A stretch of DNA of 64,000 nt from positions 124,001 to 188,000 of the forward strand of contig NZ_JAATEJ010000005.1 in assembly GCF_012034175.1 (NCBI RefSeq). Reading direction: 5' to 3'. Positions within the stretch are counted from its first letter, which is position 1, and each line of letters begins with the position of its first letter. The notes beneath the pieces are model-generated. The model saw only the letters and a list, made by a program, of their open reading frames with translations, did no database searches and had not been told where the DNA came from. This DNA is from Actinacidiphila epipremni. GTDB taxonomy: Bacteria > Actinomycetota > Actinomycetes > Streptomycetales > Streptomycetaceae. Shown here piece by piece: positions 3,393-35,428 of this stretch. Both the position numbers and the translations under genes were made by a program.

Positions 3393-3437
3393 CCGGGCGC
3401 GCGGGCCAGGACACCGACAACCGGAAAGGGACAGCTC

Positions 3438-3665
3438 ATGCCGTTGGTCCAGATTCAGCTGCTGGAGGGCCGGATCGCCCCCGGCGTGGAGAGCAGGCTC
3501 ATCGAGGAGTGCACCCGGGCCGTGGCCCGTGTGCTGGGCGAGGAGGTCAGGGAGAGCACCTGGGTCGTCGTGCAGCCGGTGCCCGCCCACCGCTGGGGCG
3601 TCGGCGGCCGTCCGTGCGGCGCGCCTGCCGCCGCCCCCGGCGCGCCACCGGCCGAGCACGCCTGA
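3438..3665 (+). CDS. 4-oxalocrotonate tautomerase-family protein
   Basis: A 75-residue protein beginning Met-Pro. After Met removal this exposes the Pro-1 general base that defines the family. The N-terminal strand (PLVQIQLLEGR) and following helix match small 4-OT subunits, which form hexamers and interconvert keto and enol forms of unsaturated acids. The last 20 or so residues are a Pro/Ala-rich tail not typical of 4-OT. An RBS (GGAAAGGGA) lies just upstream. It is last in the operon with the aryl-AMP ligase and aminotransferase and converges on the MFS gene. The substrate is unknown. Confidence 0.75.
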   Translation: MPLVQIQLLEGRIAPGVESRLIEECTRAVARVLGEEVRESTWVVVQPVPAHRWGVGGRPCGAPAAAPGAPPAEHA

Positions 3666-10256: not shown

Positions 10257-10563
10257 GTCCGTGTCCCCTCGTCGTCGGCCGGGCCGCCCGGGCCGTGCGC
10301 GCCGCGATGGCGCAGGCGTGCTCCGTGCGTCACACCTTCGTCACCGACCGCACAGCGCTTCCAGGCACGGCGACCGGCAAATCACCCGGGGCAACTTGCC
10401 GCCCCGCTGCCTGGCTTGCACACGCACGCGGGCGCGAAGCTCACGAGCCGGTGCTCCGCGGCGAAGGGCGCGGCGCCGCACGCGGTACGGCGTGCGGGCC
10501 CCGCCCCGCCCCGGCGCCGTCCGGTCGGCGCACGGCGGGAGACGGCAGGGGAAGGTGACCGAA
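10257..10563. promoter_or_regulatory. Divergent promoter region of the NRPS operon, with a palindrome and a block shared with 33.9 kb
   Basis: No gene is seen. The centre holds an 11-bp palindrome, GGCAACTTGCC (10390-10400), inside a wider inverted repeat CCAGGCA (10361-10367) and TGCCTGG (10408-10414). Positions 10396-10415 match 33952-33971 at 19 of 20 bases. GGCAAAT at 10376-10382 also occurs twice near 33.9 kb. The shared block suggests one regulator for both halves of the cluster; which one is unknown. Confidence 0.55.
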
Positions 10564-21700: not shown

Positions 21701-22738
21701 CGGCTGCTGGACGTGTTCTTCAACTACCTGGACTTCCACCAGGTGGACGACGACCTCGTGCGCGGCGACGCCACGTACAACGACAACGTCAACGAGTTCG
21801 GCCTGCACGTCTTCACCGTGCCGGGCGCGCTGCGGATCAACGCCGACAACCACACGGTCTCGCCCGCCGCGGCGCCGGTGCTGCTGGAGCTGTACCGGCT
21901 GGTGGCCGAGGAGATGGCGCTCGGGCCCGGTGGGGCGGTGGACGACGTACGGCTGCGGCTGGGCGGCGGCCGTACGGCGGACGGCGGGGCCGCCGCCCTG
22001 GTGCTGGGCGCGGACCGGCTGCCGGTGCCGCGCGGGGTGCCCGGCGACCTGTGGATCGGCGCGGGGGACGCCCCGCACCGCTCGGGGCTTGCCGCCCGCA
22101 CCGGGCTGGACGGCGCCCTGGAGGTGCTGGGCCCGGCGGACCTCGACGCGGCGACCGCGGCGCTGTGGCCGGAGGGCTCGGCGGCGGTGCTGCTGCGGGT
22201 CCAGGAGCTGCTCAACGGTGATCCCGCGGTCCTCGACAGCCGGGTCCTGGTCCGCCCGGGCGAGGACGGCACGGCGTGCGTGACGGCGTATCTGCGGCTC
22301 GCGGAGGGCGGGGCGGCGGATGTGGACGCCCTGGGCCGGATGCTCGCCGCCCGGCGGCTGCCGCGGCGTTTCGTGCCCCGGCTGTGGGCCGTCGCCGACG
22401 GGTGGCCGCTGCGGCCGGACGGCACGCTCGCGGTCGAGGAGCTGCCGGAGCCCGCCGCGCCGGCCGCGGACCCGGCCGGGCAGGACAGGAGCCCGTGGGA
22501 CGAGGTGTTCGACGCGCTGCTGCGCGAGACGCTGGGCCTGGAGCCGGAGGGCGACGCGGTCGCGGCGGACCGCCCGCTCGCGGACGCCGGCCTGGACTCC
22601 TTCCGGATGGTCGGCATGCTGGTGGCGATCGAGCAGGCGTACGGCGTGGCCGTGCCGGACGACATCCCGTTCCTGGAGATGTTCCGCACCCCGCGGACGC
22701 TGTGGGAGGCGGTGCTCAGGTTCCGGCTGGGCGGCTGA
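18758..22738 (+). CDS. NRPS, C-PCP-C-(A remnant)-PCP
   Basis: 1326 residues without a working A domain. The first C domain has HHIACDG (~170). The PCP has FDLGGDSLRA (Ser ~573). The second C domain reads ECHPILEGWS at the active site (~777), where HHxxxDG is usual: the second His is kept, the first is Cys and Asp is Glu. Residues ~1145-1232 resemble only the C-terminal subdomain of an A domain, ending RPDGTLAVEEL where NGK is expected, so its lysine is lost. A final carrier (ADAGLDSFRM, Ser ~1279) closes the protein. Both carriers must be charged in trans. Preceded by AGGAAGG; last gene of the rightward NRPS operon. Confidence 0.9.
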   Translation: MTPQKADARLEDLVRRRLRTAARPVLPRTGGDRPCALSAGQQQMWVLHRMDPGSPAYLMSWPVRIAGPLDRAALRGAWTDLAGRHEVLRTRYAAADGGRDHAVQLVDAVAAPGWQEVDLTHLPAGRREERARQVAGWVRRRPFDLTAEQPLRVTLVRLAAELHLMVVTVHHIACDGPGLIGRELGELYAARVAGRPPGLPGVPMHYADFAAWERAGLADGRLAPHLAYWRAELDGVTELPLPLDRPRPARPDSRGGAVTVEVPAAVSQAVRALAAEHRTSPFAVLLTAFHAALARITGSGDVTVGVPVALRSAPELAGMVGYLVNTVVVRARPGGGVPFGALLDEVRGALLGALDHQAAPFAWVVDELRPVRTPGVNPLFQAAFDMDEPADPGLFALPGLVVEQLGLGQETPAKFDVNLHADVLPDGRYAARLDYAAAVLDEATAARWARLWLAVLEAGVRAPGAAASPAAGPAAGEAPQARADAAGRAGDAAEGTAPLPVSAAPDGPPGPARAGSAPADRAARADAAGPADAVGAVGSAARVAGLVAEAWAEVLGVADPAPDDNFFDLGGDSLRAVALAGRLRSRGLDVAAGDLFAYQSVAELAQIVAGRAAVERVPDPVRPFALLGPEDRAALPADVVDAYPLAAVQLGMLVELRANPGRTTYQDSTSFLIRDSAPPDAALLQRAVQAVVDRHEVLRTSFDLAGYSVPLQLVHRAAPITVGVTTVAAGEPADWLPVLREFGAAERREPMDVTRAPLVRVHAHARQDRPSWWLTITECHPILEGWSFHTMLMEILTGYRALRAGRPPEPPEAVPFRYADYIAAEARSREDAADRAYWRQAVQGRTEPALPVAWQDPPQVPRRRDQYLVDLRDVDADLRRLAEETRTSPKAVLLAAHLTVMRLLGGGAADFFTGLVCDARPEAVGADRVLGMYLNTLPFPAPSGARTWGGLVRAVHERLTGLWPHRRYPMPLIQQEFGGGDRLLDVFFNYLDFHQVDDDLVRGDATYNDNVNEFGLHVFTVPGALRINADNHTVSPAAAPVLLELYRLVAEEMALGPGGAVDDVRLRLGGGRTADGGAAALVLGADRLPVPRGVPGDLWIGAGDAPHRSGLAARTGLDGALEVLGPADLDAATAALWPEGSAAVLLRVQELLNGDPAVLDSRVLVRPGEDGTACVTAYLRLAEGGAADVDALGRMLAARRLPRRFVPRLWAVADGWPLRPDGTLAVEELPEPAAPAADPAGQDRSPWDEVFDALLRETLGLEPEGDAVAADRPLADAGLDSFRMVGMLVAIEQAYGVAVPDDIPFLEMFRTPRTLWEAVLRFRLGG

Positions 22739-22742
22739 GCGG

Positions 22743-23834
22743 TCAGTACGCCGGGGCGGCCGGCGCGGGCGCGGCGGCGGAGAGCCGTTCGCGGACCGAG
22801 GCGAGCGCGGGCAGCGTGGCGAGGACGTCGTCCTCGGGCACCCCGAAGTCGATGAGGCAGGCGGCCTCGTCCGCGCCCGCCTCCTCCAGCGCCCGCACCG
22901 CGGCGACCCCGTCGTCGACCGTGCCGAAGACGCCGACCCCGTCGAAGTAGCGGTCGAAGGCCCGGTCCAGCAGGAAGTCCTCGTCCTGCGCGGACAGTTC
23001 GAGCGGCGCCCCGCCGGCGCCGGCCGGGCTGCCGGCGGAGCGCAGGACCAGGTCGAGGGAGCTGCGCAGGTACTCCCGCAGCGGCGCGCGCACCAGCGAC
23101 CGTACGGCGTCGCGGGACGGCCCGATCAGCGTGTGCACCATGACGGCCACATGGCCGCGGGCGGCCTCGCCGTGGCAGGCGGCCAGCTCCGCGCGGTAGG
23201 CGGCGATGCCGCGGGCGAGCGCCGCGTGGTCCTGGCTCAGCATGTGGGTGAGCAGGCCCGCGCCGAGCCGGCCGGCCAGCCGGAAGGTGTCCGGGGAGCC
23301 GGCGGCCGTGATCCACAGCGGCAGTTCGGCCTGCACCGGCCGCGGGAAGACCCGCACCTCGTGCGGCTCGCCGTCCGGGCCGGCGAGGGCGACGGCCCCG
23401 CCGCGCCACAGCGCCCGTACCGTCTCCACCGCCTCGGCCATGACCTGCTTGCGGTCCCGGTAGGCGTCGGGCCGCAGTGTGAAGTCGACCGGGTGCCAGC
23501 CGGAGGCGAAGGACACCCCGGCGCGCCCGTGGGAGAGGTTGTCCACCACGGACCACTCCTCGGCGAGCCGCACGGCGTGGTGCAGCGGCGCGACGACGCT
23601 TCCGGCGCGGATCGCGATCCGCCGGGTCGTCACGGCCAGCGCGGCGCCCACCACGGCGGGGTTGGGGTACTGGCCGCCGAAGGCGTGGAAGTGGCGCTCG
23701 GGGGTCCACACGGCGGCGAAGCCGTTGCGGTCGGCGAAGGCGGCGCTGTCCAGGAGCAGCCGGTACGGGTCGCCCGCGGGGCCCGCGGCCGGCGCGGCGG
23801 GGCTGCTGGCGAAGAAGAACAGGCTCATGTCCAT
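22743..23834 (-). CDS. Luciferase-like FMN-dependent monooxygenase (MupA/Atu3640 type)
   Basis: 363 residues from the ATG at 23834, preceded by GGAAGG. The N-terminal strand (MSLFFFAS), WTPERHFHAFGGQYPNPAVVGAAL and LSHGRAGVSFASGWHPVDF are hallmarks of the luciferase-like family often found in NRPS/PKS clusters. It would use reduced FMN and O2 to hydroxylate or N-oxidise a substrate, probably carrier-bound. In butirosin biosynthesis an FMN monooxygenase (BtrO) acts on the acyl-ACP built by BtrI, BtrJ and BtrK, and those three have counterparts in this operon. Homology to BtrO itself is not established here. It lies tail to tail with the last NRPS gene, 4 bp apart. Confidence 0.85.
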   Translation of the reverse strand: MDMSLFFFASSPAAPAAGPAGDPYRLLLDSAAFADRNGFAAVWTPERHFHAFGGQYPNPAVVGAALAVTTRRIAIRAGSVVAPLHHAVRLAEEWSVVDNLSHGRAGVSFASGWHPVDFTLRPDAYRDRKQVMAEAVETVRALWRGGAVALAGPDGEPHEVRVFPRPVQAELPLWITAAGSPDTFRLAGRLGAGLLTHMLSQDHAALARGIAAYRAELAACHGEAARGHVAVMVHTLIGPSRDAVRSLVRAPLREYLRSSLDLVLRSAGSPAGAGGAPLELSAQDEDFLLDRAFDRYFDGVGVFGTVDDGVAAVRALEEAGADEAACLIDFGVPEDDVLATLPALASVRERLSAAAPAPAAPAY

Positions 23835-23902
23835 GGCGGGCCTTCCGGGGACGCGGGCGGACGACGGAAGCACGGGCGGAGCGCGAAGGGGCCGTGGCGC
23901 GT

Positions 23903-23923
23903 GTGCGGCCGGGCGGGCCGCAC
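23903..23923. terminator. GC stem-loop in the gap before the luciferase-like gene
   Basis: GTGCGGCC and GGCCGCAC form a perfect 8-bp stem around a 5-base loop, in the 289-bp gap between the acyl-CoA dehydrogenase and the luciferase-like gene. No T-run follows. It could be an attenuator, a partial terminator or an mRNA processing site. I see no gene in the rest of the gap. Confidence 0.35.
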
Positions 23924-24123
23924 GGGCGGAGGGACGGCGGGCGCGGGTCCGGCGGGCCTCCCGCCCGGCGCCTTCGCCGCGGCTCCCTCGGCGCGGCGCC
24001 GCCCGGCGGGGACCTGCGCGCTCTGTCCGGCGCGCGGGCCCTCGGGCCCGGCGGGTTCCGCCGGCGTGCGGACCCTCCGCGGCCCGCTCGGCCGCCCGGC
24101 GGCCGGCGGGTCCGCCCCGGGCC

Positions 24124-25323
24124 TCACCGTGCGCCCTCCCGGCCCGGCGGCGGGGTGCGCCGCAGGTCGTAGCGGCCCTTGAGGTACGCCTTCGCGATGT
24201 GCTGGCGCTGGATGTCGGCGGTGCCCTCCATGAACTCGAAGGCGCCCACGTCGCGGGTCCACTTCTCCAGCAGGGGCAGGTCGACGAGAGCTTCCTGGCC
24301 CAGGGAGCGCACGGCCCAGCGGGCGGTCTCCCGGGCGAGCGTGGTCGCGGCGTATTTGGCCAGGCTGGAGGCGTGGCCGGCGTCCCGGTCGGCGTCCACG
24401 GCGGCGCCCGCCGCGTACACCAGGCTGCGGCACGCCTCGGTGCGCGCGGCCAGGACCGCGGCGCCGGGCGCCTGCGGGCGTTGCTCGCGCACGAGGTCGA
24501 GGAGCGCGCCGGCGGTGCCCACGGCGAGCGCGCCGACCTGGGCGCGCATCTGGTGGAAGACCCTGATGGCCGCCCACAGGCCCTGCCGGGCCGGCGACAG
24601 GTGACGCCCCAGCAGCCGCTCGTACGGGACGGGCACGGCGTCGAAGCGCATCTCGCCCAGGCAGGTGCCGCGCAGGCCCGCCATGTCCAGCTCCTCGGCG
24701 GCGAGACCGGGCGCGGTGGCGTCCAGCAGGGCGGCGCGGACGGACAGCGGGCCGCGTCCGGTGCGGGCGAAGACCACGCCGACGGCGCCGCGCGCCCCGT
24801 TGCCGATGTACCGCTTGACGCCGGTCAGTTCGTGGTCGCCCGCGCCGGGGCCGGCGCCCGGGCCGGTGCGGTCGAGCCGGGTCTGCATCGCGCTCGCGTC
24901 ACTGCCGCGGGCCGGTTCGGTCACGGCGAAGTAGGCCCAGGTGGCGCCGTCGGCAAGGGCGCGGTGGAAGTGCTCCTGCTGGGCCGGGTCGCCCATCTGG
25001 TCCACGAGCACGCCCGACAGGCTCGGCGCCGGGCACGCCAGGATCATCCCGGCGTCCCCGCGGGCCAGTTCGGCGAGCAGCACCACCTGGTCCAGGCAGT
25101 GTCCCGCCGCGTAGGCGTACCGTCCCAGCCGCAGCGGCCCGGCGCCGTACTGCGCGGGCGTGGTGCAGCGGCGGACCAGGTCGTAGCCGGCGACGCCCAG
25201 GTGCGGGCGCATGTCGTACGGGTTGGCGTCCACGGCGAGGGCGTGCGCCCGCAGTTCCGGGGCGGTGTCGGCGGCGGCGGCGCGCAGCAGGTCCAGGCGC
25301 TCGTCCAGCGCGAAGGCGGTCAT
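24124..25323 (-). CDS. Acyl-CoA dehydrogenase-family flavoprotein
   Basis: 399 residues, full length. YFAVTEPARGSDASAMQT is the FAD/substrate-binding signature, and FEFMEGTADIQRQHIAKAYLKG is the C-terminal signature that places the catalytic Glu region. It would introduce an alpha,beta double bond into a CoA- or carrier-bound acyl group. Two roles fit the context: desaturating an acyl chain on the operon's ACP, or desaturating a ureido-amino acid as VioJ/CmnJ do in tuberactinomycin biosynthesis. The start overlaps the end of the half-size homologue (ATGA), suggesting the two work together. The electron acceptor is not visible nearby. Confidence 0.85.
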   Translation of the reverse strand: MTAFALDERLDLLRAAAADTAPELRAHALAVDANPYDMRPHLGVAGYDLVRRCTTPAQYGAGPLRLGRYAYAAGHCLDQVVLLAELARGDAGMILACPAPSLSGVLVDQMGDPAQQEHFHRALADGATWAYFAVTEPARGSDASAMQTRLDRTGPGAGPGAGDHELTGVKRYIGNGARGAVGVVFARTGRGPLSVRAALLDATAPGLAAEELDMAGLRGTCLGEMRFDAVPVPYERLLGRHLSPARQGLWAAIRVFHQMRAQVGALAVGTAGALLDLVREQRPQAPGAAVLAARTEACRSLVYAAGAAVDADRDAGHASSLAKYAATTLARETARWAVRSLGQEALVDLPLLEKWTRDVGAFEFMEGTADIQRQHIAKAYLKGRYDLRRTPPPGREGAR

Positions 25324-25940
25324 GCGGGGCCCTCCGGGTGGCCGGGCCGCGGCACCCATACGTCGGCGGTGAGCGCGGACAGGTGCAGGACGCGTGCCGG
25401 GTGGGTCGCGAGGTAGCCCTCGGCGCCGAAGAACCGGGCGACCGTCCACCCGGCGCCGGTGAGCTGCTCGTGCAGGGCGGCCAGGGCGTCGGGGCCGGCG
25501 TCGGGCGGGGTGGCGGCGGCGGTGTGCAGGACGGTGACGACGTCGGCGGTCGCGGCCTGGACGAGTTGCAACTCGCTGAGCGGCGTGCCGGCGAAGTCCC
25601 GGCCGGCCAGCCGGTGGGCGGCGGTGTCCAGCAGCGCTTCGAGGACGCCGCAGCGGACGGCGGCGAGCGCGGCCACCCGCCCGGGCGGCAGCCCGCGGCC
25701 AGGTCCCGCGTCGGGCCAGCGCACCAGGGCGAGTCCTTCGCGGCCGGCGAGGACGTGCGGGACGACCTGCGCCTCGGCGGGCACGTCGGCGGCCGGCAGC
25801 ACGGCCCGGCCGCGCGGGGCGAGGGCGCGCGCGTCGAGCCCGGCGAGGACGGCGGCGAGCCCGGCGGCCAGCCCTGCCTCCCGCCCGAGGCGCCGCGGGT
25901 CCGCCGCGAGTCCGGCGCCGGTGGCGGGCGGGGCCGTCAT
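25320..25940 (-). CDS. Half-size acyl-CoA dehydrogenase-like protein
   Basis: 206 residues. The stretch FAGTPLSELQLVQAATADVVTVLH resembles the first helices of the acyl-CoA dehydrogenase C-terminal domain (usual pattern FGKPLxxFQxVQxxLADM). The N-terminal and beta domains are missing and the EGTxxIQ segment with the catalytic base is absent. It is flanked by intact start and stop overlaps with both neighbours, which argues against random decay. Heteromeric acyl-CoA dehydrogenases with one non-catalytic subunit are known in actinobacteria, so a partner subunit for the gene at 24124 is likely; a remnant is the alternative. Confidence 0.6.
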   Translation of the reverse strand: MTAPPATGAGLAADPRRLGREAGLAAGLAAVLAGLDARALAPRGRAVLPAADVPAEAQVVPHVLAGREGLALVRWPDAGPGRGLPPGRVAALAAVRCGVLEALLDTAAHRLAGRDFAGTPLSELQLVQAATADVVTVLHTAAATPPDAGPDALAALHEQLTGAGWTVARFFGAEGYLATHPARVLHLSALTADVWVPRPGHPEGPA

Positions 25941-26815
25941 GGCGCGCCCTCGGGCAGCAGCCCGGCCTGGAAGAGCCGCCCGGCGTGCGGATCGTGGTCG
26001 GCGACGACGACGAGCCGCCCGGGGGCGAGCCCGGCCCAGAGCCCGGCGAGCGCGGCCCACGCGCTGGTGCACAGCTGCCGCGCCGAGCCCTCGACGGCCT
26101 CCCCGACCGGCTCGCCGTCCGCCAAGTGGCGTGCCAGCGTGGCGCCGAGGACGTACAGCGGCGTGCCCGGCGCCTCCCGCAGGGCCGCCCTGGTCTGCCG
26201 CGGGCCGTCGACGGGGCGCTCGTCGGTGAAGACCAGCCGCGCCGAGCGGTCGCCGGGCCGCGAGGCGACCGGCAGCAGCACCCCGCCGTCGTCGCGCCCG
26301 CCGCCGTGCAGGTCCGGCTCGGGATAGGGCAGTGTCGTCTGGTCGAAGACGAAGAGCGCGCCGCTTTCGCCCTGCCCGCTCGCGTGCAGCGCGGCCAGGG
26401 CGCGCAGCGCGGTGAAGGGGGCGCCGACGCCCTGCCCGGAGACGGAGAAGACGTCGGGCCGTCCGGCGCACTGCGCGGCCAGGGCGCAGCCGGCGACCTT
26501 GACGAAGTCCAGGTCGGGGGTGTGGAAGGCGAGCGCCAGCAGGTCCACCGCCGGCAGCGGCGGGTCGAGGTCGCGCAGCAGCCGGGTGCCCATGTCGCTG
26601 AAGGAGTTGCCGCCCCCGGCGGCGAGCAGGGCCTGGCCCGGCGGCAGCCCGAAGTGGTCGAGGAAGTCGGCCATGCAGGTGGCGGCCCGTTCGGTGTACG
26701 CCTGCGGGCGCGGGCCGAACGTACGGGCCACCGGCGGCCCGACGTGCAGCGCGCCGCCGGCGTCGGCGTGGGCGTGGCCGTCGGCCTGTGCGGCGGTCGT
26801 CGCGGAGTGCGGCAC
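25937..26815 (-). CDS. Ketosynthase/thiolase-fold protein lacking the active Cys
   Basis: 292 residues. The arrangement DLLALAFHTPDLDFVKVAGCALAAQ, then FSVSGQGVGAPFTALRALAALHASG, then GALFVFDQ follows the KASIII/thiolase fold, but the nucleophile position falls in SGQGVGAPF with no Cys. It may be a non-catalytic partner of the KSIII at 29820, comparable in logic to a chain-length factor. GTG start; its stop overlaps the half-size dehydrogenase start (ATGA), and the ACP lies 3 bp upstream. Fold assignment is by pattern only and should be treated as tentative. Confidence 0.55.
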   Translation of the reverse strand: MPHSATTAAQADGHAHADAGGALHVGPPVARTFGPRPQAYTERAATCMADFLDHFGLPPGQALLAAGGGNSFSDMGTRLLRDLDPPLPAVDLLALAFHTPDLDFVKVAGCALAAQCAGRPDVFSVSGQGVGAPFTALRALAALHASGQGESGALFVFDQTTLPYPEPDLHGGGRDDGGVLLPVASRPGDRSARLVFTDERPVDGPRQTRAALREAPGTPLYVLGATLARHLADGEPVGEAVEGSARQLCTSAWAALAGLWAGLAPGRLVVVADHDPHAGRLFQAGLLPEGAP

Positions 26816-26818
26816 GGC

Positions 26819-27097
26819 TCAGCCCACCGCGTCCTGCGCGCCTTCCAGGCAGGCGCGGATGTAGCCGATGAGGGCGCCGACCGTCTCGAACGTCTCGGGG
26901 GTGAGCTCGTCGGGGTCGATCTGCAGGCCGAGGGAGTCCTCCAGTTCCATGAGCAGTTCGATGACGCCGGTGGAGTCCAGCGCGAGGTCGCCGAACAGGC
27001 GCATGTCGTCGTGGAGTTCGGGGACGTCCTTGCGCAGGACCTCGGTGAGGCCGTCGTGCAGGGCGGTGCGGATCTCGTCGGTCTGCGTGCCGGGCAT
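26819..27097 (-). CDS. Acyl carrier protein
   Basis: 92 residues. Phosphopantetheine attachment motif LALDSTGVIELLMELED with Ser about residue 42, flanked by an acidic helix II typical of discrete ACPs. AAGGAGAGCCCACC precedes the ATG. It sits immediately before the KS-like gene and after the PLP decarboxylase and ATP-grasp ligase genes. In butirosin a discrete ACP (BtrI) is charged with glutamate by an ATP-grasp ligase and the acyl group is decarboxylated on the carrier, which matches these neighbours. It could also be the partner of the amino acid:carrier ligase at 35496. Confidence 0.9.
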   Translation of the reverse strand: MPGTQTDEIRTALHDGLTEVLRKDVPELHDDMRLFGDLALDSTGVIELLMELEDSLGLQIDPDELTPETFETVGALIGYIRACLEGAQDAVG

Positions 27098-27125
27098 GGT
27101 GGGCTCTCCTTGGCGGTGGGCGGGC

Positions 27126-28448
27126 TCAGTGGAGCGCGGGCGCGGTCAGGTCGGGGTGGGTGGCCTGGCGCGACAGCAGGTCGTCGACGGTGTCGCGGCG
27201 CCGCACCAGGTACGCCGTCCCGCGGCGGACCAGCACCTCGGCCGGGTAGCCGTGGCTGAGGAAGTACGCCGGGGAGGCGGACGGCCCGTACGCGCCGGAG
27301 CGCCGGACGCCGAGCAGGTCGCCGACGGCGAGGTCCGGCAGCCGTACCGCCTTGGCGACGGTGTCGTTGGGGGTGCACAGCGGCCCGGCGACGGTCCAGG
27401 GCCCGGCCTCGGCGTCCGGCGGGACGGGCCGGGACAGCAGCTCGACGGGGAAGTTGCGCTTGACGAAGGAGCCGATGCCGACGGCCGCCATGTGGTGGTG
27501 GGTGCCGCCGTCGGCGACGGCGAACCGGTCGCCCATCGACTCCTTGATGTACCGCACCCGCATCAGGTAGGTGCCGCCGGGCGCGGTGAGGTAGCGGCCG
27601 GACTCCATCAGCAGGCGGGTGCCGGGGTGCCGGCGGGCGAAGTCCTCGACCAGCGGGTTGATGCCGGCGGCGAGCGCGTCGAGGTCGAGGTCGTGCTCGC
27701 CGTCGAAGTAGGCGACGCCGAGGCCGCCGCCGATGTCGACGGCGTCCAGCGCGATCCCGGTGGACTCGGCGACGTGCTCGGCGAGCCGGAGCACGTACGC
27801 GGTGTTCTTGACGATCACCTCGTGGTCGAGGATGCGGGTGCCCATGTACACCTGGACGCCGGCGGCGACGGCGTGCCGGTAGGAGCGGATCAGGGCGCCC
27901 GCGGGCGGCACCGCGGCCTCGTCGATGCCGAACTGGCGGGGCTTGCCGCCCATGGTGAGCCGTGAGCCGGCCACCGAGTAGGCGGGGTTGATCCGCAGCA
28001 GCACCCGCTGCCGGACCCCGAGGCGGGCGGCGGCGTCGTCGATGAGGGCGAGTTCGGGCAGCGACTCGCACACCACGGCGTACAGCCCGGCCCTGACGCA
28101 CGCCTCGATCTCGGCCGCGCTCTTGCCGGGGCCGAGGAAGACGACGTCGGCGGGGTCGGTGCCGGCGTCGAGCACGGTGCGCAGCTCGGCGAGCGAGGAG
28201 ACCTCGGCGCGGGCGCCGGCCGACCGCAGGACGTCGTAGACGGCCCGGTTGGGGTTGGACTTCAGGGAGAAGAAGACCTCCAGGGCCGGGTGCAGGGCGG
28301 CGCGCAGCGCGTGCAGGTTGCCGGCGAGCCAGTCGCCGTCGTAGACGTAGGTGGGGGTGCCGAACCGCTCGGCGAGGTCCCGCCAGCCGTCGGGGCCGGA
28401 GAGGTCGGCCGGTGCCGACTGCGCTTCGTGCCAGGTCGCGCCGTTCAT
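27126..28448 (-). CDS. Fold-type III PLP decarboxylase (LysA/BtrK-like)
   Basis: 440 residues. The PLP lysine is in FFSLKSNPN (~residue 62), the glycine-rich phosphate loop is DIGGGLGVAYFDG, and the second-subunit Cys is in GPLCTPNDTV. These match diaminopimelate decarboxylase relatives. GGKPRQFGID is also seen in relatives that act on carrier-tethered amino acids such as BtrK and VinO. Overlap (ATGA) with the ATP-grasp gene and the nearby ACP favour decarboxylation of an acyl-ACP, for example gamma-glutamyl-ACP to 4-aminobutyryl-ACP. A staphyloferrin B-like SbnH role is less likely because no IucA/IucC-type synthetases are present here. Confidence 0.85.
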   Translation of the reverse strand: MNGATWHEAQSAPADLSGPDGWRDLAERFGTPTYVYDGDWLAGNLHALRAALHPALEVFFSLKSNPNRAVYDVLRSAGARAEVSSLAELRTVLDAGTDPADVVFLGPGKSAAEIEACVRAGLYAVVCESLPELALIDDAAARLGVRQRVLLRINPAYSVAGSRLTMGGKPRQFGIDEAAVPPAGALIRSYRHAVAAGVQVYMGTRILDHEVIVKNTAYVLRLAEHVAESTGIALDAVDIGGGLGVAYFDGEHDLDLDALAAGINPLVEDFARRHPGTRLLMESGRYLTAPGGTYLMRVRYIKESMGDRFAVADGGTHHHMAAVGIGSFVKRNFPVELLSRPVPPDAEAGPWTVAGPLCTPNDTVAKAVRLPDLAVGDLLGVRRSGAYGPSASPAYFLSHGYPAEVLVRRGTAYLVRRRDTVDDLLSRQATHPDLTAPALH

Positions 28449-29818
28449 GCCCGCTCCACCATTTCCTCCAGTGCCCGGGCGGCCTTCGACCGCAGGGCGT
28501 CGACGTCCTCGGGCCCGTCGCCGAGGCAGACCGCGTACAGCCGGCCCTTCGACCGGCGGCCGGGGGTGACGCCGGCCCGCAGCGTCGCGGTGTTGGTGAC
28601 CAGGACCCCGCGCGCGGAGCCGGCGTCGAGCAGCAGGTCGCCGAGTGCGGCGCGGACCTCGTCGAAGCCGTGGGCGCGCACCGGTTCGAGGTCGAAGACG
28701 GTGGCGAGCGCGCACCGGCCCGGAGTGAGCAGCCGTTCTGCCAGCCGGTTCTGGAAGGTCGCCATGTTGAAGCGGGCGTTGATCTCCAGGCACGGGTAGA
28801 GGGTGCCGTCGCGGCCGAGCATCGCGTCCACGCCGGCCACCCCGTAGTAGCCGGCCTGCGCCAGGCCCTTGCCGAGCACCTGTGCCGCAGCCTCCAGCGC
28901 GGCGGTGTGGCCGGGGTCGAGCGGCGGCGGGAAGAGGTGGCCGCGGTGGACGCCGCCCTCGGTGAGGGCGGCCTTGACCGTCTCGAACGCCACCGATCCG
29001 TCGCGGGCGACGACGAACTGGTAGTTGAGGTCGTACTCCTTGTCGATCCAGCGCTCCACGACGACCTCGATGCGCTCGCCGCGCCGCGCGGCCATCCGGA
29101 CCAGCTGCTCGCCGCGCCGGGCGCTGTCCAGGACGACCAGGCCGCGCCCGGAGACGCCGAGCGACTCCTTGACCACGACCGGGCCGGAGCCGCCGGCCAG
29201 GTGCTCCTTGAGGGCGGCGGCGAGTTCGCCGACGGTGCGGCATTCGGCGCCCGGCACCGGGGTGAGCCCGCTGCGGTCGACCAGCGCGCGGCTGAAGATC
29301 TTGCCGTTGACCCGCTTGCAGGTGGCGGCGTCCGGCCCGGCGAGCGGCAGCCCGGTGGCGGCGGCGAGCCGTTCCTCGTCGGCGGAGACGCCCAGCGGCA
29401 TGAGGTAGGTGCGCCCGTCGGCGAGGCCGGCGAGCTGCGCGAGGAGCCGCGGGGAGGCGAGGGCGTCGGTGGTGACCGGCTGCTCGGGCCGGTCGTGGTC
29501 GGGGGTGAGCACCTGCCCGGCGGCGAGGCCGAGCGGGCGCAGGTACGCGGCGAAGGCGGGCTCCACGGGCGCCTTGAGGACGACGAGGTCGCCCTCGTCG
29601 GCGAGCAGGACGCCGACCTCCTCCATCCGGTTGACGGTCGGCGCGTTGAAGGACAGCCCGGCGCCGGGCAGCCCGGGGTCGCCGCGGCCCCAGGCGCGTT
29701 CGACCTCGAAGTTGTTGAGGTGGACGAAGCGGGCGTCGCGGTCGCCGGTCACCGCGGCCTTGAGGCGGGCGATGAAGCCGGGGCGCGGGCCCGCCGGCGG
29801 GGATGTGTCGGCGGTCAT
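28445..29818 (-). CDS. ATP-grasp ligase (BtrJ/PGM1-like)
   Basis: 457 residues. An N-terminal pre-ATP-grasp region (RFVHLNNFEVERAWGRG) precedes the ATP-grasp domain: nucleotide-binding lysines in CKRVNGKIFSR and PVVVKESLGVSGRGLVVLD, and metal ligands in CLEINARFN. Members of this group join amino acids to amines or carrier proteins through acyl-phosphates: PGM1 extends peptides, and BtrJ loads glutamate onto BtrI. The flanking decarboxylase and ACP favour the BtrJ-like role. It overlaps the decarboxylase gene by 4 bp and lies 1 bp from the KSIII gene. The acyl substrate cannot be read from the sequence. Confidence 0.8.
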   Translation of the reverse strand: MTADTSPPAGPRPGFIARLKAAVTGDRDARFVHLNNFEVERAWGRGDPGLPGAGLSFNAPTVNRMEEVGVLLADEGDLVVLKAPVEPAFAAYLRPLGLAAGQVLTPDHDRPEQPVTTDALASPRLLAQLAGLADGRTYLMPLGVSADEERLAAATGLPLAGPDAATCKRVNGKIFSRALVDRSGLTPVPGAECRTVGELAAALKEHLAGGSGPVVVKESLGVSGRGLVVLDSARRGEQLVRMAARRGERIEVVVERWIDKEYDLNYQFVVARDGSVAFETVKAALTEGGVHRGHLFPPPLDPGHTAALEAAAQVLGKGLAQAGYYGVAGVDAMLGRDGTLYPCLEINARFNMATFQNRLAERLLTPGRCALATVFDLEPVRAHGFDEVRAALGDLLLDAGSARGVLVTNTATLRAGVTPGRRSKGRLYAVCLGDGPEDVDALRSKAARALEEMVERA

Positions 29819-29819
29819 G

Positions 29820-30821
29820 TCACTGCCCTCCAGGGCCGGCGGCGTGCGGCGGCAGGTCGTCCACCCGCACCACGACCGCGGAGAACGTGCCGCTGGCCCC
29901 GGCGGACAGCAGGACGACGGCGTCGCCGGGCCGTATCGCGGCCTCGGCGCGGGCGGTGTGCAGGTTGACGAACGGGTCGGCGCCGAAGCAGTGGCCCGTC
30001 CTCGGCACGTTGTCCAGGTAGAACCGCTCGACGGGCACACCGAGGGTCTTGGCGCTCATGACCCACGAGTGGCGGTTGACGTTGTGCGGGAGGATGCGGT
30101 CGATGTCGTCGAGGGTCAGTCCCGCGTCGGCGACGGCCTCGTGCAGCACCTCCAGCATCGTCGGCATGTAGACCTGCTTGTAGCGGCGTTGCACGTCGGC
30201 CGGCATGTCCTGCGAGGAGTGGTATTCGCCGAGGGTGCGGTGCGCCTGGCCGACGACCTCGTCGCCGGGCCCGTCGAGGCCGGCCAGCACCGCGACCGCG
30301 GCCTCGCCGAGGATCGTGGTGCCGTGCAGCTTCTGCACCAGCGGGGTGGTGATCTTGTCGGTGACGAGCACGAGCGCCTGGGCGCCCGGCGGCTCGGCGC
30401 GCAGCAGCGCCTCGACGACCCGGACGCTGAACAGCCCGCTGGTGCAGTTCTGGTGGGCGAGCTCGAACCCGGACGCCTCGGTGAGCTGGAGCTTGTCGCG
30501 CAGCGTGGTCATCAGGCGGTGGGTCGCGGGGGTGACGTGCAGGACGGTGTGCGGGTGGACCAGGTGCCGCACCCGGGTGCGGTCGGCCCCGTCGAGTGCG
30601 GCCTCGCCGGCGGTGAGCATCATCTCCTGGGCCGTCATGCCCTCGGCCATGGGGACGCGTTCCAGGCCCAGGTAGGTGGTGAACAGCCGGACCTCGGCGC
30701 GGGTGAGGCCGAGGCGGTCCTGGAGGTCGGCGATGGCGACGGTGGTGGGCGGCACATAGGGCGCGATCCGCTGGAGCCGCAGGCCCCGGCGCCCGGTCGC
30801 GGTGCGTTCAGTCCAGGCCAT
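29820..30821 (-). CDS. 3-oxoacyl-ACP synthase III (FabH-like) with altered third catalytic residue
   Basis: 333 residues. The nucleophile is in LAHQNCTSGLFSVRV (Cys ~125) and the His in ILPHNVNRHSW (~246). The third position, Asn in canonical KASIII (GNT/GNTSA), reads TGHCFGADPF, so it is His. Variants of the Cys-His-Asn triad occur in KSIII-like enzymes that form C-O or C-N bonds rather than C-C bonds, such as CerJ with Asp. It may condense the ACP-bound acyl group with malonyl-ACP or transfer it. Start overlaps the end of the OTC-like gene by 14 bp. It may pair with the Cys-less KS-like protein. Confidence 0.8.
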   Translation of the reverse strand: MAWTERTATGRRGLRLQRIAPYVPPTTVAIADLQDRLGLTRAEVRLFTTYLGLERVPMAEGMTAQEMMLTAGEAALDGADRTRVRHLVHPHTVLHVTPATHRLMTTLRDKLQLTEASGFELAHQNCTSGLFSVRVVEALLRAEPPGAQALVLVTDKITTPLVQKLHGTTILGEAAVAVLAGLDGPGDEVVGQAHRTLGEYHSSQDMPADVQRRYKQVYMPTMLEVLHEAVADAGLTLDDIDRILPHNVNRHSWVMSAKTLGVPVERFYLDNVPRTGHCFGADPFVNLHTARAEAAIRPGDAVVLLSAGASGTFSAVVVRVDDLPPHAAGPGGQ

Positions 30822-31749
30822 GGCACCACTCCAGGACGGCCATGGCGCTGTGCAGCTTGTTCTCCGCCTGGGCGAAGGCGAGGCTCCCGGCGCCGTCCAG
30901 CACCTCGGCGGCGACCTCCTCGCCGCGGTGCGCGGGCAGGTCGTGCAGGAAGACCGCCTTGGGCGCGCGGGCCATCAGTTCAGGGCCGACGTGGAAGGGC
31001 GCGAAGACGGTCCGCCAGTCGGGGTCCGGCTTGGTGGTGCCGGTGGTCTGCCAGCGGGTGGTGTAGACGGCGTCGAGGTCCGCGGGCAGCCGGTCGAGGT
31101 CGTGCCGCTCGCTCACCCGGGCGCCGCTCTGCTCGGCCTGCGCCAGGGCCCGCGCGCGGACGGCGGGCAGCAGCCCGTAGCCCGGCGGTGTGCGCAGGTC
31201 CAGCAGCGTCCCGCGGTGGCGGCTGAGGGCGAGCGCGAGGGCGGCTGCGGTGTTGTTGCCCTCGCCGACGTAGAGGACGCGCAGGCCCTCGATGTCGCCG
31301 AAGTGCAGGGCGAGCGTGGTGAGGTCGGCCAGTGCCTGCGTCGGGTGCTCGTCGGCGCTCATCGCGTTGACGACGGCCATCCGCCGCTGCCCGGCCGCCC
31401 ACGCCCGCATCTCCGCCGGGTCGCCCGCGGTCCTGGCGACCAGCACGTCCAGCATGCCGGCCATGACCCGCCCGGTGTCCTCGGTGGTCTCCCCGGTGTT
31501 GGTCTGCAGGTCGCCCGGGCCGTACGCGACGACGCCCGCGCCGAGCCGCAGCGCGCCGGCGGAGAAGGCGGTGCGGGTACGGGTCGAGGTCCGCCGGAAG
31601 TAGACCCCGACGACGGCCCCGACGAGCGTCGCCTCGGCCCGCCCGCCCGCGGCCGACCGGCGGGCGTGCGCGACGGCCCGGGCCACCACCGAGCGCAGCG
31701 CGCCGTCCGGCAGGTCGGACAGCGAGACCAGGTGCCGGGCCCGGGTCAC
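30808..31749 (-). CDS. Carbamoyltransferase, ornithine-carbamoyltransferase-like, probably acting on diaminopropionate
   Basis: 313 residues from the GTG at 31749, which gives a GTGA overlap with sbnB and 8-base spacing from GGAG; the GTG at 31752 is possible. The carbamoyl-phosphate loop STRTRT and the EHPTQALAD motif are intact. The amino-acid-binding HCLPAHRG of ornithine transcarbamylases reads HDLPAHRG (~268), replacing the Cys that contacts ornithine. A changed acceptor is expected, and directly downstream of the two Dap genes the likely one is L-2,3-diaminopropionate, giving beta-ureidoalanine. Viomycin and zwittermicin clusters pair Dap genes with such an enzyme. No arginine genes are nearby. 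Confidence 0.8.
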   Translation of the reverse strand: MTRARHLVSLSDLPDGALRSVVARAVAHARRSAAGGRAEATLVGAVVGVYFRRTSTRTRTAFSAGALRLGAGVVAYGPGDLQTNTGETTEDTGRVMAGMLDVLVARTAGDPAEMRAWAAGQRRMAVVNAMSADEHPTQALADLTTLALHFGDIEGLRVLYVGEGNNTAAALALALSRHRGTLLDLRTPPGYGLLPAVRARALAQAEQSGARVSERHDLDRLPADLDAVYTTRWQTTGTTKPDPDWRTVFAPFHVGPELMARAPKAVFLHDLPAHRGEEVAAEVLDGAGSLAFAQAENKLHSAMAVLEWCHGLD

Positions 31750-32750
31750 CACCGTGACTCCTCGGCGAAGAAGCCGTCGAAGGCGTGGGCGGTGCCGTCG
31801 GCGATGCCGGCCGCCAGCACCTCGGTGCCCACCGCGATGTCGAGCACGCCCAGCCCGAAGGGCGAGAAGATCAGCGGCTTGTCGCGGGTGAGCGCGAACT
31901 CGCCGAGGACGAGCCCGGCGAGGGTGCCGTCGATGAAGTCGCGGGTGCCGAACTTCTGCACCGCCAGGTGCGGGGAGGTGCCGGCGTGCAGGCAGTGCTC
32001 GACGTCGTCCAGGACGTTGTGCGCGTCGGCGATCAGCTCGGGCCCGATGTCCCGCAGCGAGATGTTCAGCACCGTCTGCCCGGCGGCGAAGAAGCCGGGT
32101 TCGGTGATGTACGGTTCGGCCGCCGTGGTCGCCAGCACGACGAGGTCGGCGCCGGCGACCGAGCCGCGCAGGTCCGCCCCCGTACAGGCGGTGAAGCCCA
32201 GCGAGCGGGCGTACGCGGCCGACTTGGCGGCGTAGGCGGGGACGGTGTCGTGCACGACCACCTCGCCGGCGCTCCAGCCGAGGTCGTGCAGGAACTCCAG
32301 GATGTTCCGGGAGATGACGCCGGCGCCGACGACCGCGATCCGGTCCGCGGTGCGCGACCCGTGCAGGTGCTCGGCGCCCAGCGCCGCGGAGGCGGCCGTG
32401 CGGGCGGCGCTGATCTGCGCGGCCTCCAGGCACGCGAAGGGGTAGCCGGTGGCGTAGTCGTTGAGGATCAGCACCGCCGAGGCGCGCGGCAGGTTGCGGG
32501 CCACGTTGCCGGGGAAGCTGCCGATCCACTTCAGCCCGGCGACCGGCGGGTCACCGCGCAGCAGGGCCGGCAGCGCGATGATGCGCGCGTCGGGCTTGTC
32601 GGGGAAGCGCAGGAAGTAGCTGTCGGGGTTGATGGTCTCCCCGCGGTGGTGTGCGCGGTAGGTGTCGTCGATCCGGGCGTGGATCCGGGCCCGGGAGCGG
32701 GCGACGACCGCGCGTACCGCCGTTCCGCCCATGACGTGGAAGGGCAGCAT
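31746..32750 (-). CDS. sbnB: N-(2-amino-2-carboxyethyl)-L-glutamate dehydrogenase, SbnB family
   Basis: 334 residues, of the ornithine cyclodeaminase/mu-crystallin fold. The N-terminal substrate motif (LKWIGSFPGN) and the Rossmann segment (IAVVGAGVISRNILEFL) match SbnB, which oxidatively hydrolyses the SbnA product to L-2,3-diaminopropionate and 2-oxoglutarate using NAD+. It lies 3 bp downstream of sbnA, with GGAGGTGACCC upstream of the ATG. The pair is diagnostic for Dap supply. The start at 32750 (MLPFHVMGG) is well supported. Confidence 0.92.
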   Translation of the reverse strand: MLPFHVMGGTAVRAVVARSRARIHARIDDTYRAHHRGETINPDSYFLRFPDKPDARIIALPALLRGDPPVAGLKWIGSFPGNVARNLPRASAVLILNDYATGYPFACLEAAQISAARTAASAALGAEHLHGSRTADRIAVVGAGVISRNILEFLHDLGWSAGEVVVHDTVPAYAAKSAAYARSLGFTACTGADLRGSVAGADLVVLATTAAEPYITEPGFFAAGQTVLNISLRDIGPELIADAHNVLDDVEHCLHAGTSPHLAVQKFGTRDFIDGTLAGLVLGEFALTRDKPLIFSPFGLGVLDIAVGTEVLAAGIADGTAHAFDGFFAEESRW

Positions 32751-32753
32751 GGG

Positions 32754-33788
32754 TCACCTCCGTGCCGTGGTCAGGCCGGGTTCACCGGCGGCCGGGGCGG
32801 TCGGCGGCTGCGGCCCGAAGGTCTGCGCGACCCAGGCGTCGTCGTAGACCGTCCGTGCGTAGCGGTCGCCGAGGTCGGGTGAGATCGCCACGACGCGCGA
32901 GCCGGCGGGCAGGCCGGGGGCCCGCTGGAGCACCGCGGCCATGACCGCGCCGGTCGAGCCGCCGGCGAACAGCCCGCGGGTGCGGGCCATCCAGCGGCAG
33001 GCGCGTACCGCGTCGGCCTCGGCGACCGACGCGAGCTCGTCGAACAGGCCGGGCTCGAAGAGCTCGGGGACCCGGCTGGCGCCGATGCCGGGGATGAACC
33101 GGGGGCCGGGCAGGGACGTCCCGAAGCTCACCGAGCCGACCGCGTCCACCGCGACGATCCGGGTCGCGGGCGACATCCGGCGGAAGTGGCTCACGCAGCC
33201 CATGGCGGTGCCGGACGAGCCGACGCCGACGAACAGGTAGTCCACGGACGGCACTTCGGCGGTGATGGCGGCGGCGGTGCAGCGGTCGTGGACGGTGCTG
33301 TTGGCGGGGTTGGCGTACTGGTTGAGCCACACCAGGCCCGGGTCGGCGGCGACGCGCTCCTCGATGTAGGAGATGCGGCTGCCGAGGAAGCCGCCGCTGG
33401 CGTCCCGCCAGTCGACCTCGACGGTCTCGGCGCCCAGTGCCCGCATCACGTCCAGGCTGTGCGGCGAGGTGTTGGGGTCGGTGACGCAGGTGAAGGTGTA
33501 GCCCTTGGCCGCGGCCACCATCGCCAGCGCGATGCCGAGGCTGCCCGACGAGGACTCGATGAGCCGGCTCCCGGTGCGCAGCAGGCCGCGCCGCTCGGCG
33601 TCCTCGACCATGGCGACGGCCGTCTTGAGCTTGACCGAGCCCGCCGGGTTCAGGCCCTCCATCTTCAGGAAGACGTCGACGTTGTCGACCGCGTCCCCCA
33701 GGTGCAGGAAGACGTTGTCCAGGACCATTTCGTAGGCGTGCTCGAATATCACCGTCGCAACCCCAGGTGAGTGCCAGTGCAACCCCAT
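32754..33788 (-). CDS. sbnA: 2,3-diaminopropionate biosynthesis protein SbnA (cysteine synthase-like)
   Basis: 344 residues from the ATG at 33788, preceded by GGAGG; the ATG at 33800 is upstream of that site and less likely. The PLP lysine is in LNPAGSVKLKTA, the asparagine/serine loop is SSSGSLGIALAM, and GVGSSGTAMG binds the phosphate. SbnA condenses O-phospho-L-serine with L-glutamate to N-(2-amino-2-carboxyethyl)-L-glutamate, the SbnB substrate. First gene of an operon of about eleven genes ending near 22.7 kb. The divergent promoter region upstream carries the 20-bp block shared with the NRPS operon. Confidence 0.92.
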   Translation of the reverse strand: MGLHWHSPGVATVIFEHAYEMVLDNVFLHLGDAVDNVDVFLKMEGLNPAGSVKLKTAVAMVEDAERRGLLRTGSRLIESSSGSLGIALAMVAAAKGYTFTCVTDPNTSPHSLDVMRALGAETVEVDWRDASGGFLGSRISYIEERVAADPGLVWLNQYANPANSTVHDRCTAAAITAEVPSVDYLFVGVGSSGTAMGCVSHFRRMSPATRIVAVDAVGSVSFGTSLPGPRFIPGIGASRVPELFEPGLFDELASVAEADAVRACRWMARTRGLFAGGSTGAVMAAVLQRAPGLPAGSRVVAISPDLGDRYARTVYDDAWVAQTFGPQPPTAPAAGEPGLTTARR

Positions 33789-34003
33789 CCGAGCCTCCAT
33801 GGGCTCAAGGCGCCTCGGTGGCCGACGAATGCAGAGCGTAAGCAGCGCGGGGGCGCCGCAACAGGCAAATCGGCGGCAGCTTGCGGCGCCGCCCCGGACC
33901 CGGCAAATGCCCCGGGAGCGACCGAGCGGCGGCAGGAAGCAGGCAGCCGAGTTGCCGCCGCGCTGCCTGGCCCGCCGGGCGCGCGCGTGCCGTACTGGGG
34001 CGC
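33789..34003. promoter_or_regulatory. Divergent promoter region with the block shared with 10.4 kb
   Basis: This 215-bp gap separates sbnA from the stand-alone C domain. It holds TTGCCGCCGCGCTGCCTGGC at 33952-33971 (19 of 20 identical to 10396-10415), GGCAAAT at 33864-33870 and 33902-33908, CGGCAGCTTGCGG at 33874-33886, and a perfect inverted repeat AGGCAGC/GCTGCCT (33941-33947 and 33962-33968). The block ends 32 bp before the ATG at 34004. These look like operators of a cluster-specific regulator. Confidence 0.55.
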
Positions 34004-35428
34004 ATGTCGCTGATGGACCGCAGCACCGCCGTGCCGGCCGGCGCCGGGTGCGCCCTGAGCGTCGGGCAGGAGGCGCTGTGGTTCCTGTACGCGCTGGCCC
34101 CGGGCAGCAGCGCGTACAACATCGCCGGGGCGGTGCGGCTGGACTTCACCGCGGACGCCGCGGCGCTGGAGTCGGCGGCGCTGGCGACGGTGGCGGGCAA
34201 CAGCATGCTCAACTGCCTGTTCCGCTCGGCCCGGACCGGCCCGCGCCGGCTGCCGGGCGCCGCCGCGCCGTACGCGTCGGTCTTCGCGCTGCGGCGGGTC
34301 GGCGCGGACCGGCTGCGGGCGGCGGCGCTGGAGGCCTCGCGGCGCCCCTTCCGGCTGGAGCGGGAGGCGCCGGTGCGGGTCACGCTGCTGCGCCCGGACG
34401 GCGGCGGGGGCGATGTGCTGGTGGTCACCGCGCACCACATCGCGCTAGACAACGTCTCGCACGTCCGGCTGTTCGCCGACCTGCTGACGGCGTACGGGCG
34501 AAGGGCCGGCGGTACGGACGGGGGTACGGCCGGGGCTGCGGCCGGCGGCGGGGCCGGCGCGGGGGGCGACACGGGCCCGGGCGCCGACGCCGGCGGCGCG
34601 TACGCGGACTTCGTGCGGCGGGAGCAGGACTTCCTGCGCTCGCCGCGCGGCGAGTCGGCGCGCCGGCACTGGCAGCGCGTCCTGGGCGCCGTCCCCCACG
34701 ACCCGCCGCTCGCCGGCGACCTGCCGCGGCCCGGCGTCTACCGCTTCGCCGGCGACCAGGTGGAGCTGGCGGTCCCGGACCGTCTCACCGCGGGTGCCGC
34801 GGCGCTCGCGGCCGAGGCGAACGCCACGCCCTTCGCCGTGCTGCTGGCCGTCTTCCAGCTGCTGCTCTACGCCGCGACCGGCGAGCCGCTGCGCCTGCTG
34901 GGCTATCCGGCGACGGTACGTCCCGGGGCGCGGCACCGGGAGGCGACCGGCTACTACGTCAACACCCTGCCGTTCCCGGCGCGGGTGGAGCCGGACGACT
35001 CGTTCGCCGTGCTGCTGCGGCGCACCGCGGACGAGCTGCGGGCGGCGCTGCTCCACCGGGCGTATCCGTTCGCGCTGATGGCGCGGGCGGCCGGGCGGCC
35101 CAGGGCGGCGGACCGGGCGGGGCTGCTGGGGGCGCTGTTCGTGGTGACCGAGGAGGACCCGGCGCAGGTGGCCGCGGCGAGCGCGCTGCCGGCCGGGCGG
35201 TCCTTCGCGGCCTACCCGCTGCCGCAGCAGCAGGGGCAGTTCGACCTGACGTTGCAGATCTCCCGGCGGGGCCCGGCGACCGCCGCCGTCCTGAAGTACA
35301 ACACCTCGCTGTTCACCGCCGGCGCGGCCCGTGCCGTCGCCGAGCGCTATCTCGGCCTGCTCGCCGCGGCGGTCGAGGGCACTTTGCCGGACCGGCTGGG
35401 CGGCCTCGCGCCGGCCGCGGCCCGATGA
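34004..35428 (+). CDS. Stand-alone NRPS condensation domain
   Basis: 474 residues, a single C domain. The active-site motif is HHIALDN (~144), with the Gly replaced by Asn. LGYPATVRPGARHREATGYYVNTLPFPARV is the conserved solvent-channel/latch region and QGQFDLTL the late motif. A Gly/Ala-rich insertion (about residues 168-195) interrupts the N-lobe after the motif. Without carrier or A domain it must act in trans. It is followed 67 bp later by the amino acid:carrier-protein ligase gene, so the pair may add a residue loaded by that enzyme. Start ATG at 34004; ATG at 34013 is an alternative. Confidence 0.82.
   Translation: MSLMDRSTAVPAGAGCALSVGQEALWFLYALAPGSSAYNIAGAVRLDFTADAAALESAALATVAGNSMLNCLFRSARTGPRRLPGAAAPYASVFALRRVGADRLRAAALEASRRPFRLEREAPVRVTLLRPDGGGGDVLVVTAHHIALDNVSHVRLFADLLTAYGRRAGGTDGGTAGAAAGGGAGAGGDTGPGADAGGAYADFVRREQDFLRSPRGESARRHWQRVLGAVPHDPPLAGDLPRPGVYRFAGDQVELAVPDRLTAGAAALAAEANATPFAVLLAVFQLLLYAATGEPLRLLGYPATVRPGARHREATGYYVNTLPFPARVEPDDSFAVLLRRTADELRAALLHRAYPFALMARAAGRPRAADRAGLLGALFVVTEEDPAQVAAASALPAGRSFAAYPLPQQQGQFDLTLQISRRGPATAAVLKYNTSLFTAGAARAVAERYLGLLAAAVEGTLPDRLGGLAPAAAR

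Follow-up and report, generated by a model that had tools for sequence, protein, structure and literature searches.

A seven-gene cassette of Actinacidiphila epipremni that probably builds dehydro-beta-alanine from aspartate beside a split peptide synthetase

What acyl group is made by an operon in which an acyl carrier protein (ACP), an ATP-grasp ligase and a LysA-fold decarboxylase stand beside ketosynthase III (KSIII)-type proteins and genes for 2,3-diaminopropionate (Dap) synthesis? This question is raised by a stretch of 64,000 nucleotides of Actinacidiphila epipremni, hereafter the window (contig NZ_JAATEJ010000005.1, positions 124,001 to 188,000 of the forward strand; all positions below are those of the window), from a genome of 8.2 Mb in 100 contigs. 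A first-pass annotation had read the operon as a butirosin-like module making a 4-aminobutyryl group from glutamate. We consider, with good confidence, that the core operon is a cassette that would make dehydro-beta-alanine, an enamide unit, from aspartate.

Genes were called from base composition, and the window proteins were scanned with Pfam and NCBIfam. All genes named in the first-pass annotation lie on the minus strand and have coding-type composition. In addition, gene calls, family scans and structure models agreed with their names, that is, ACP, ATP-grasp ligase, LysA-fold decarboxylase, KSIII, a Cys-less KS-like protein, a full and a half-size acyl-CoA dehydrogenase (ACAD), SbnA, SbnB and an ornithine carbamoyltransferase (OTC)-like enzyme (Table 1). 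The ATGA overlap that it had reported between the ligase and decarboxylase genes was likewise found, at 4 nt.

Seven of these genes form a cassette in the order KSIII, ATP-grasp, decarboxylase, ACP, Cys-less KS-like, half-size ACAD and ACAD. The neighbourhood search proposed at the first pass bore this out. All seven genes stood in order in 50 of the 79 named loci gathered by KSIII searches, and the first five did so in 63/79; several of the loci without the full order were cut by contig ends or rearranged. This conservation is far beyond chance, and the seven-gene order is kept across actinobacteria. Furthermore, Dap synthesis, OTC-like and nonribosomal peptide synthetase (NRPS) genes accompany the cassette at some loci and not at others; it lies beside fatty-acid, polyketide synthase (PKS) or NRPS genes, and is also found in Paenibacillus. 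Thus, it is a unit of its own. Of 394 genomes in the window's order, about 34 had the cassette-type ATP-grasp (36 matches with E <= 1e-30, two of them weak), and KSIII, decarboxylase and ACP genes adjoined it in 16 of 300 Paenibacillaceae genomes. Separately, at the Paenibacillaceae loci L188-L192, an ATP-grasp belonging broadly to this family stands next to one or two carrier proteins, with a second ATP-grasp about 5 kb away; no decarboxylase was seen in that stretch.

By sequence comparison, the decarboxylase belongs to the BtrK family rather than to LysA. It matched BtrK (2j66/7ru7) with 311 bits and the best diaminopimelate decarboxylase with 151 bits, and its gene adjoins that of the free-standing ACP, which is in line with the BtrK-type decarboxylase, ATP-grasp and ACP grouping noticed earlier. 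However, the comparison with BtrK that had been suggested as a check came out only partly as expected. In the decarboxylase tree, the window enzyme fell in a cassette clade of 30 rows (support 97/96) and BtrK lay outside it, although BtrK, L140 and the other decarboxylases sit on long branches and their exact placement is unsure. Within the clade, the window enzyme grouped with those of L082 and L085 (support 100/98), two loci with a VinN-type ligase. L085 also carries SbnA and an OTC-like enzyme with 64% identity to the window's. Among the loci examined from the 300 Paenibacillaceae genomes, there was neither a decarboxylase more than 44% identical to BtrK nor a butirosin locus.

The ligase bears on the choice of amino acid. 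Of the cassette loci examined, 77 had the ATP-grasp, 9 had a VinN-type ligase and none had both, with a few genomes counted twice via different tools. At the cassette loci without the ATP-grasp, the VinN-type ligase occupies its place. The ligase of one such locus (L070) matched VinN with 389 bits and the next different enzyme with 207 bits. Moreover, the VinN-type ligases all keep Asp230, Arg331 and Ser/Thr at position 299 of VinN (for the roles of these residues, see PMC7756342), whereas two control NRPS adenylation (A) domains keep only the Asp. A VinN-type A domain has been assigned to aspartate loading in the bolagladin (PMC7756342) and AFC-BC11 (PMC12186527) pathways. Because the two ligases replace each other, and because the window decarboxylase groups with those of VinN-type loci with BtrK outside, the ATP-grasp probably acts on aspartate rather than glutamate. 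Most likely, it would be an aspartyl-ACP ligase and the product would be dehydro-beta-alanine rather than 4-aminobutyrate.

This fits what is known of related systems. Like the window, the clusters of bolagladin (bol, Burkholderia gladioli) and AFC-BC11 (afc, B. cepacia complex) have an ACP, a BtrK-like decarboxylase, KASIII-like enzymes and an ACAD, and they build dehydro-beta-alanine from aspartate with that enzyme set. Deletion of the BtrK homologue bolN abolishes bolagladin, and deletion of the ACAD gene bolQ gives a beta-alanine analogue (PMC7756342). For AFC-BC11, the loading of aspartate and its decarboxylation to beta-alanine on the carrier protein were reconstituted (PMC12186527). However, bol and afc load aspartate by a VinN-type A domain (BolO, AfcQ), whereas the window has an ATP-grasp, and the peptide and lipid parts differ. 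The VinN/VinL/VinO system of vicenistatin follows the same logic, in which an aspartate-type acid is loaded by its side chain and decarboxylated on an ACP. However, VinN is an AMP-forming ligase, and the vicenistatin unit is a polyketide starter and undergoes no desaturation.

We propose that the ATP-grasp loads aspartate via its beta-carboxyl onto the free-standing ACP and that the alpha-carboxyl is then lost through the decarboxylase, leaving beta-alanyl-ACP. The amine of this unit would be acylated by KSIII together with its Cys-less partner, and desaturation by the ACAD and its half-size partner would yield N-acyl-dehydro-beta-alanyl-ACP. By analogy to autucedine, the acyl donor would be an acyl-CoA of primary metabolism. 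In that pathway AutS/OleH, a KASIII homologue, has been proposed to attach acyl-CoAs to the unit on the ACP (PMC11204786; Zhang et al. 2022, cited in PMC12843350).

The residues of KSIII bear on its proposed role. Its invariant positions include Cys126, His246, Asn249, His277 and Asp282. A His replaces the Asn of FabH, with an Asp five residues on, and this GHxxxxD spacing (His277, Asp282) is that of CerJ/ChlB3-type acyltransferases. Together with Cys126, it is in line with the Cys/His/Asp triad of the amide-forming KASIII-like AfcL of AFC-BC11 (PMC12186527). For these reasons, KSIII more probably transfers an acyl group to an amine, or passes on the finished unit, than performs a Claisen extension. 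Thus, of the earlier suggestion that the KSIII pair extends or transfers the acyl group, transfer may hold and carbon-carbon extension looks less probable. The 292-aa partner has no Cys at the catalytic position, and its model (predicted local distance difference test 84.5) matched the KSIII structures AbyA1, ChlB3 and FabH with E down to 7e-11. The desaturation proposed at the first pass gains support, and the ACAD keeps the catalytic Glu. The model of the half-size protein is similar to the C-terminal portion of ACADs (best E 3e-3, probability 1.0).

Several other loci are worth recording. Ahead of Actinomadura-type cassettes (L066:4430-10019) lie genes for an acyl-AMP ligase, two more ACAD-like proteins and another ACP, and these point to an unsaturated acyl donor dedicated to KSIII. 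On plasmids of Tritonibacter mobilis (L142:7950-10388) and Gemmobacter fulvus (L145:5992-8466), a BtrK-like decarboxylase and an ACAD are fused in a single frame; because of this fusion, the two enzymes may act consecutively. A Rahnella plasmid (L141:13941-29227) has a BtrK-like decarboxylase, three KASIII-like genes, two acyl-CoA dehydrogenases and adenylating enzymes, and is likely to encode an enamide pathway in Enterobacterales. An unannotated Burkholderia cenocepacia locus (L140:8677-18851) resembles bol/afc, with ACADs, several KSIII-like genes, a Cys-less KS-like gene, an A domain with the VinN residues and a BtrK-like decarboxylase. Finally, a Streptomyces plasmid cluster (L146:7932-17200) combines a BtrK-like decarboxylase (58% to the window's), holo-ACP synthase, an adenylating enzyme, a carrier protein, a P450 and ectoine synthesis genes; its product is possibly an ectoine-derived conjugate.

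Three other explanations were weighed against the aspartate cassette. If the operon were of the butirosin type, glutamate would be loaded by its gamma-carboxyl, giving 4-aminobutyryl-ACP and then 4-aminocrotonyl-ACP for transfer. The best solved relative of the decarboxylase is indeed BtrK, the L-glutamyl-[BtrI ACP] decarboxylase, and the ligase is an ATP-grasp like BtrJ and unlike the VinN-type A domain of bolagladin, so that window and butirosin share an ACP, an ATP-grasp and a decarboxylase of one family. However, the tree leaves BtrK outside the cassette clade and places VinN-type, aspartate-loading loci inside the window's subclade, and the exchange of the two ligases speaks against glutamate as well. 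In addition, published pathways that use the cassette's enzyme set start from aspartate and their products contain dehydro-beta-alanine, KSIII and ACAD have no butirosin counterpart, and no genes for 2-deoxystreptamine or for gamma-glutamyl removal were found. The 4-aminobutyryl reading is therefore unlikely.

KSIII and its Cys-less partner might also form a carbon-carbon bond in a Claisen-type reaction on aminoacyl-ACP, leading to a short amino-polyketide. In fold, the KS-like protein comes nearest to the tetronate condensing enzyme AbyA1, and some cassettes adjoin PKS or fatty acid synthase-like genes. However, the FabH Asn is replaced as in the non-decarboxylating CerJ/ChlB3, the cassette has no malonyl-loading enzyme, and AfcL forms an amide in the same setting; we consider such a condensation very unlikely. 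Meanwhile, the co-occurrence of Dap synthesis, a carbamoyltransferase and an ACAD recalls the tuberactinomycins (viomycin/capreomycin), where the ACAD would make beta-ureidodehydroalanine within the peptide like VioJ, with no relation to the carrier module. However, dozens of loci without OTC have the ACAD as part of the cassette, and this role was rejected on that ground. Furthermore, no VioC/CmnC-type arginine hydroxylase (the oxygenase is AsnO-like) and no capreomycidine synthase were found among the scanned genes, and such a logic is highly improbable here.

Some points weigh against the aspartate cassette as we propose it. BtrJ, the best-known analogue of the window ATP-grasp, uses glutamate, and the PDB offers no close, characterised homologue of the window enzyme. 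There is no obvious acyl-activating enzyme among the cluster genes. BolM and BolP of bolagladin have Ser/Thr in place of the KSIII Cys (PMC7756342), and N-acylation in AFC-BC11 is done by a fatty acyl-AMP ligase rather than a KSIII (PMC12186527); because of these two cases, KSIII may pass the finished unit onward. Finally, a link to enamidonin discussed below, that of genome G295, was drawn from gene content and A-domain codes, of which only the Gly code is clear.

The cassette of the window lies in a wider, antibiotic-type cluster (about 7628-41477), which the first-pass annotation had missed. Its extent was obtained by gene-by-gene comparison with G115 and also with G067, G073, G090 and G182. 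G115 keeps every cluster gene at about 64-90% amino acid identity, and the named close relatives come from Streptomyces, Kitasatospora, Actinacidiphila and Micromonospora. The cluster contains split NRPS proteins, two stand-alone condensation (C) domains, an AsnO-like oxygenase, a MupA-type luciferase-like monooxygenase (LLM), an amino acid:carrier-protein ligase, a regulator and two ABC exporters. The genes left of 7628 fall outside by the conservation test; for example, AMP-ligase, DegT aminotransferase and tautomerase genes at 767-3665 adjoin the cluster and are not kept with it in G115. Hydroxylation of the unit by the LLM, as BtrO does, was considered and dropped, because the LLM gene is missing from most cassette loci.

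Table 1. Features of the window discussed in the text (T, thiolation domain; TE, thioesterase; PLP, pyridoxal phosphate; aaRS, aminoacyl-tRNA synthetase)
Feature	Position	Strand	Evidence or motif
Stand-alone C domain with A-domain C-terminal remnant; kept only in G115	7628-9199	-	PF00668
AsnO-like asparagine oxygenase (TauD fold)	9264-10208	-	PDB comparison
T-TE didomain protein	10492-11721	+	Pfam
Type II thioesterase	11757-12521	+	PF00975
Stand-alone A domain fused to MbtH	12944-15298	+	code DLPKIAEVGK, Asn-like
NRPS A-T-C-T	15302-18721	+	code DAWQCATIDK, Gln-like; beta-ureidoalanine proposed
NRPS C-T-C-(A remnant)-T, no working A domain in cis	18758-22738	+	
LLM, MupA-type	22743-23834	-	TIGR04020, 440 bits (cut-off 244)
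ACAD, proposed desaturase of N-acyl-beta-alanyl-ACP	24124-25323	-	catalytic Glu (MEGTADIQ)
Half-size ACAD-like partner, 206 aa, without N-terminal half	25320-25940	-	
Cys-less KSIII-fold partner, 292 aa	25937-26815	-	no Pfam family; predicted structure
ACP, free-standing	26819-27097	-	LDS phosphopantetheine site
BtrK-family PLP decarboxylase (LysA fold)	27126-28448	-	SLKSN, ESGRYL, DGGTHHH
PreATP-grasp/ATP-grasp ligase, proposed aspartyl-ACP ligase replacing VinN-type enzyme	28445-29818	-	PF18604, 67.6 bits
KSIII-type acyltransferase	29820-30821	-	Cys126, His246, His277, Asp282 invariant
OTC-like enzyme, proposed Dap carbamoyltransferase	30808-31752	-	HDLP and TTG for HCLP and SMG
SbnB, Dap synthesis family	31746-32750	-	TIGR03944, 378 bits (cut-off 327)
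SbnA-like PLP enzyme	32754-33800	-	PF00291, 208 bits
Stand-alone C domain	34004-35428	+	HHIALDN
Amino acid:[carrier protein] ligase, class II aaRS-like	35496-36389	+	Bll0957 family, 189 bits
Helix-turn-helix regulator	36438-37712	-	
Two ABC exporter half-transporters	37709-41477	-	

Dap synthesis by SbnA and SbnB, as first annotated, is supported by the family matches, and ureidoalanine is supported as probable. The OTC-like enzyme scored 212 bits, below the OTC cut-off of 281, and a true ArgF (390 bits) is encoded elsewhere in the genome. HCLP and SMG are the ornithine motifs of OTC. HDLP is kept in 14 of 15 homologous OTC-like rows, among which some loci occur twice, and we propose Dap as the natural candidate substrate. 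The oxygenase matched AsnO with 256 bits, lysine 3-hydroxylase with 142 and VioC with about 135. Both A-domain codes are largely kept across orthologous clusters; DLPKIAEVGK resembles the Asn code DLTKLGEVGK, and DAWQCATIDK the Gln code DAWQFGLIDK. Because beta-ureidoalanine is a glutamine isostere, the Gln-type pocket could take it. In addition, the NRPS has four carrier domains that lack an A domain in cis and thus require loading in trans. In our proposal, the NRPS would take over the N-acyl-dehydro-beta-alanine unit and use Asn, which the AsnO-like enzyme probably hydroxylates, and beta-ureidoalanine made from Dap by the OTC-like enzyme, with a further residue loaded by the amino acid:carrier-protein ligase.

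Is such a pathway already described? The first-pass annotation knew of none with this combination, which holds for the OTC part only. The lipopeptides autucedine, enamidonin and olenamidonin (Streptomyces olivaceus) already combine Dap and dehydro-beta-alanine, as the window's SbnA/SbnB and cassette would, and enamidonin-type products contain dehydro-beta-alanine, two Dap, Phe and Gly (PMC11204786). In G295, the cassette adjoins SbnA/SbnB and an NRPS of four modules, in which an epimerase-like C domain follows module 1 and module 4, with a Gly code (DILQVGLIWK), precedes the TE, and we infer that this cluster fits the enamidonin/autucedine family. In contrast, the NRPS of the window is split and mostly trans-loaded (A-MbtH, A-T-C-T, C-T-C-T and T-TE) rather than tetramodular, in cis and closed by Gly and TE. 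The codes of its A domains are Asn-like and Gln-like, and the window adds the OTC-like enzyme, the oxygenase, the LLM and the amino acid:carrier-protein ligase. Literature searches for products of BtrJ/BtrK-type modules and for peptides with ureidoalanine and hydroxyasparagine gave no match. Thus the cassette most likely makes an acylated, reactive unit by a chemistry already described for the enamidonin and bolagladin lipopeptides, and here it adjoins an unusual, probably urea-bearing peptide assembly line for which no described product matched. With moderate confidence, we propose for this cluster an undescribed enamide peptide with N-acyl-dehydro-beta-alanine, beta-ureidoalanine and hydroxyasparagine, made on a mostly trans-loaded NRPS, with the ATP-grasp as a non-homologous aspartyl-ACP replacement of VinN-type ligases.

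The exchange of ATP-grasp and VinN-type ligases offers a testable case of two unrelated enzymes for one carrier-loading step, and clusters of the window type would add a proposed Dap carbamoyltransferase and trans-loaded residues to dehydro-beta-alanine chemistry. Furthermore, many actinobacterial genera and Paenibacillaceae carry the cassette, whereas dehydro-beta-alanine is known from few natural product families. Therefore, the cassette may serve as a genome-mining hook for a large and mostly unexplored set of enamide peptides.

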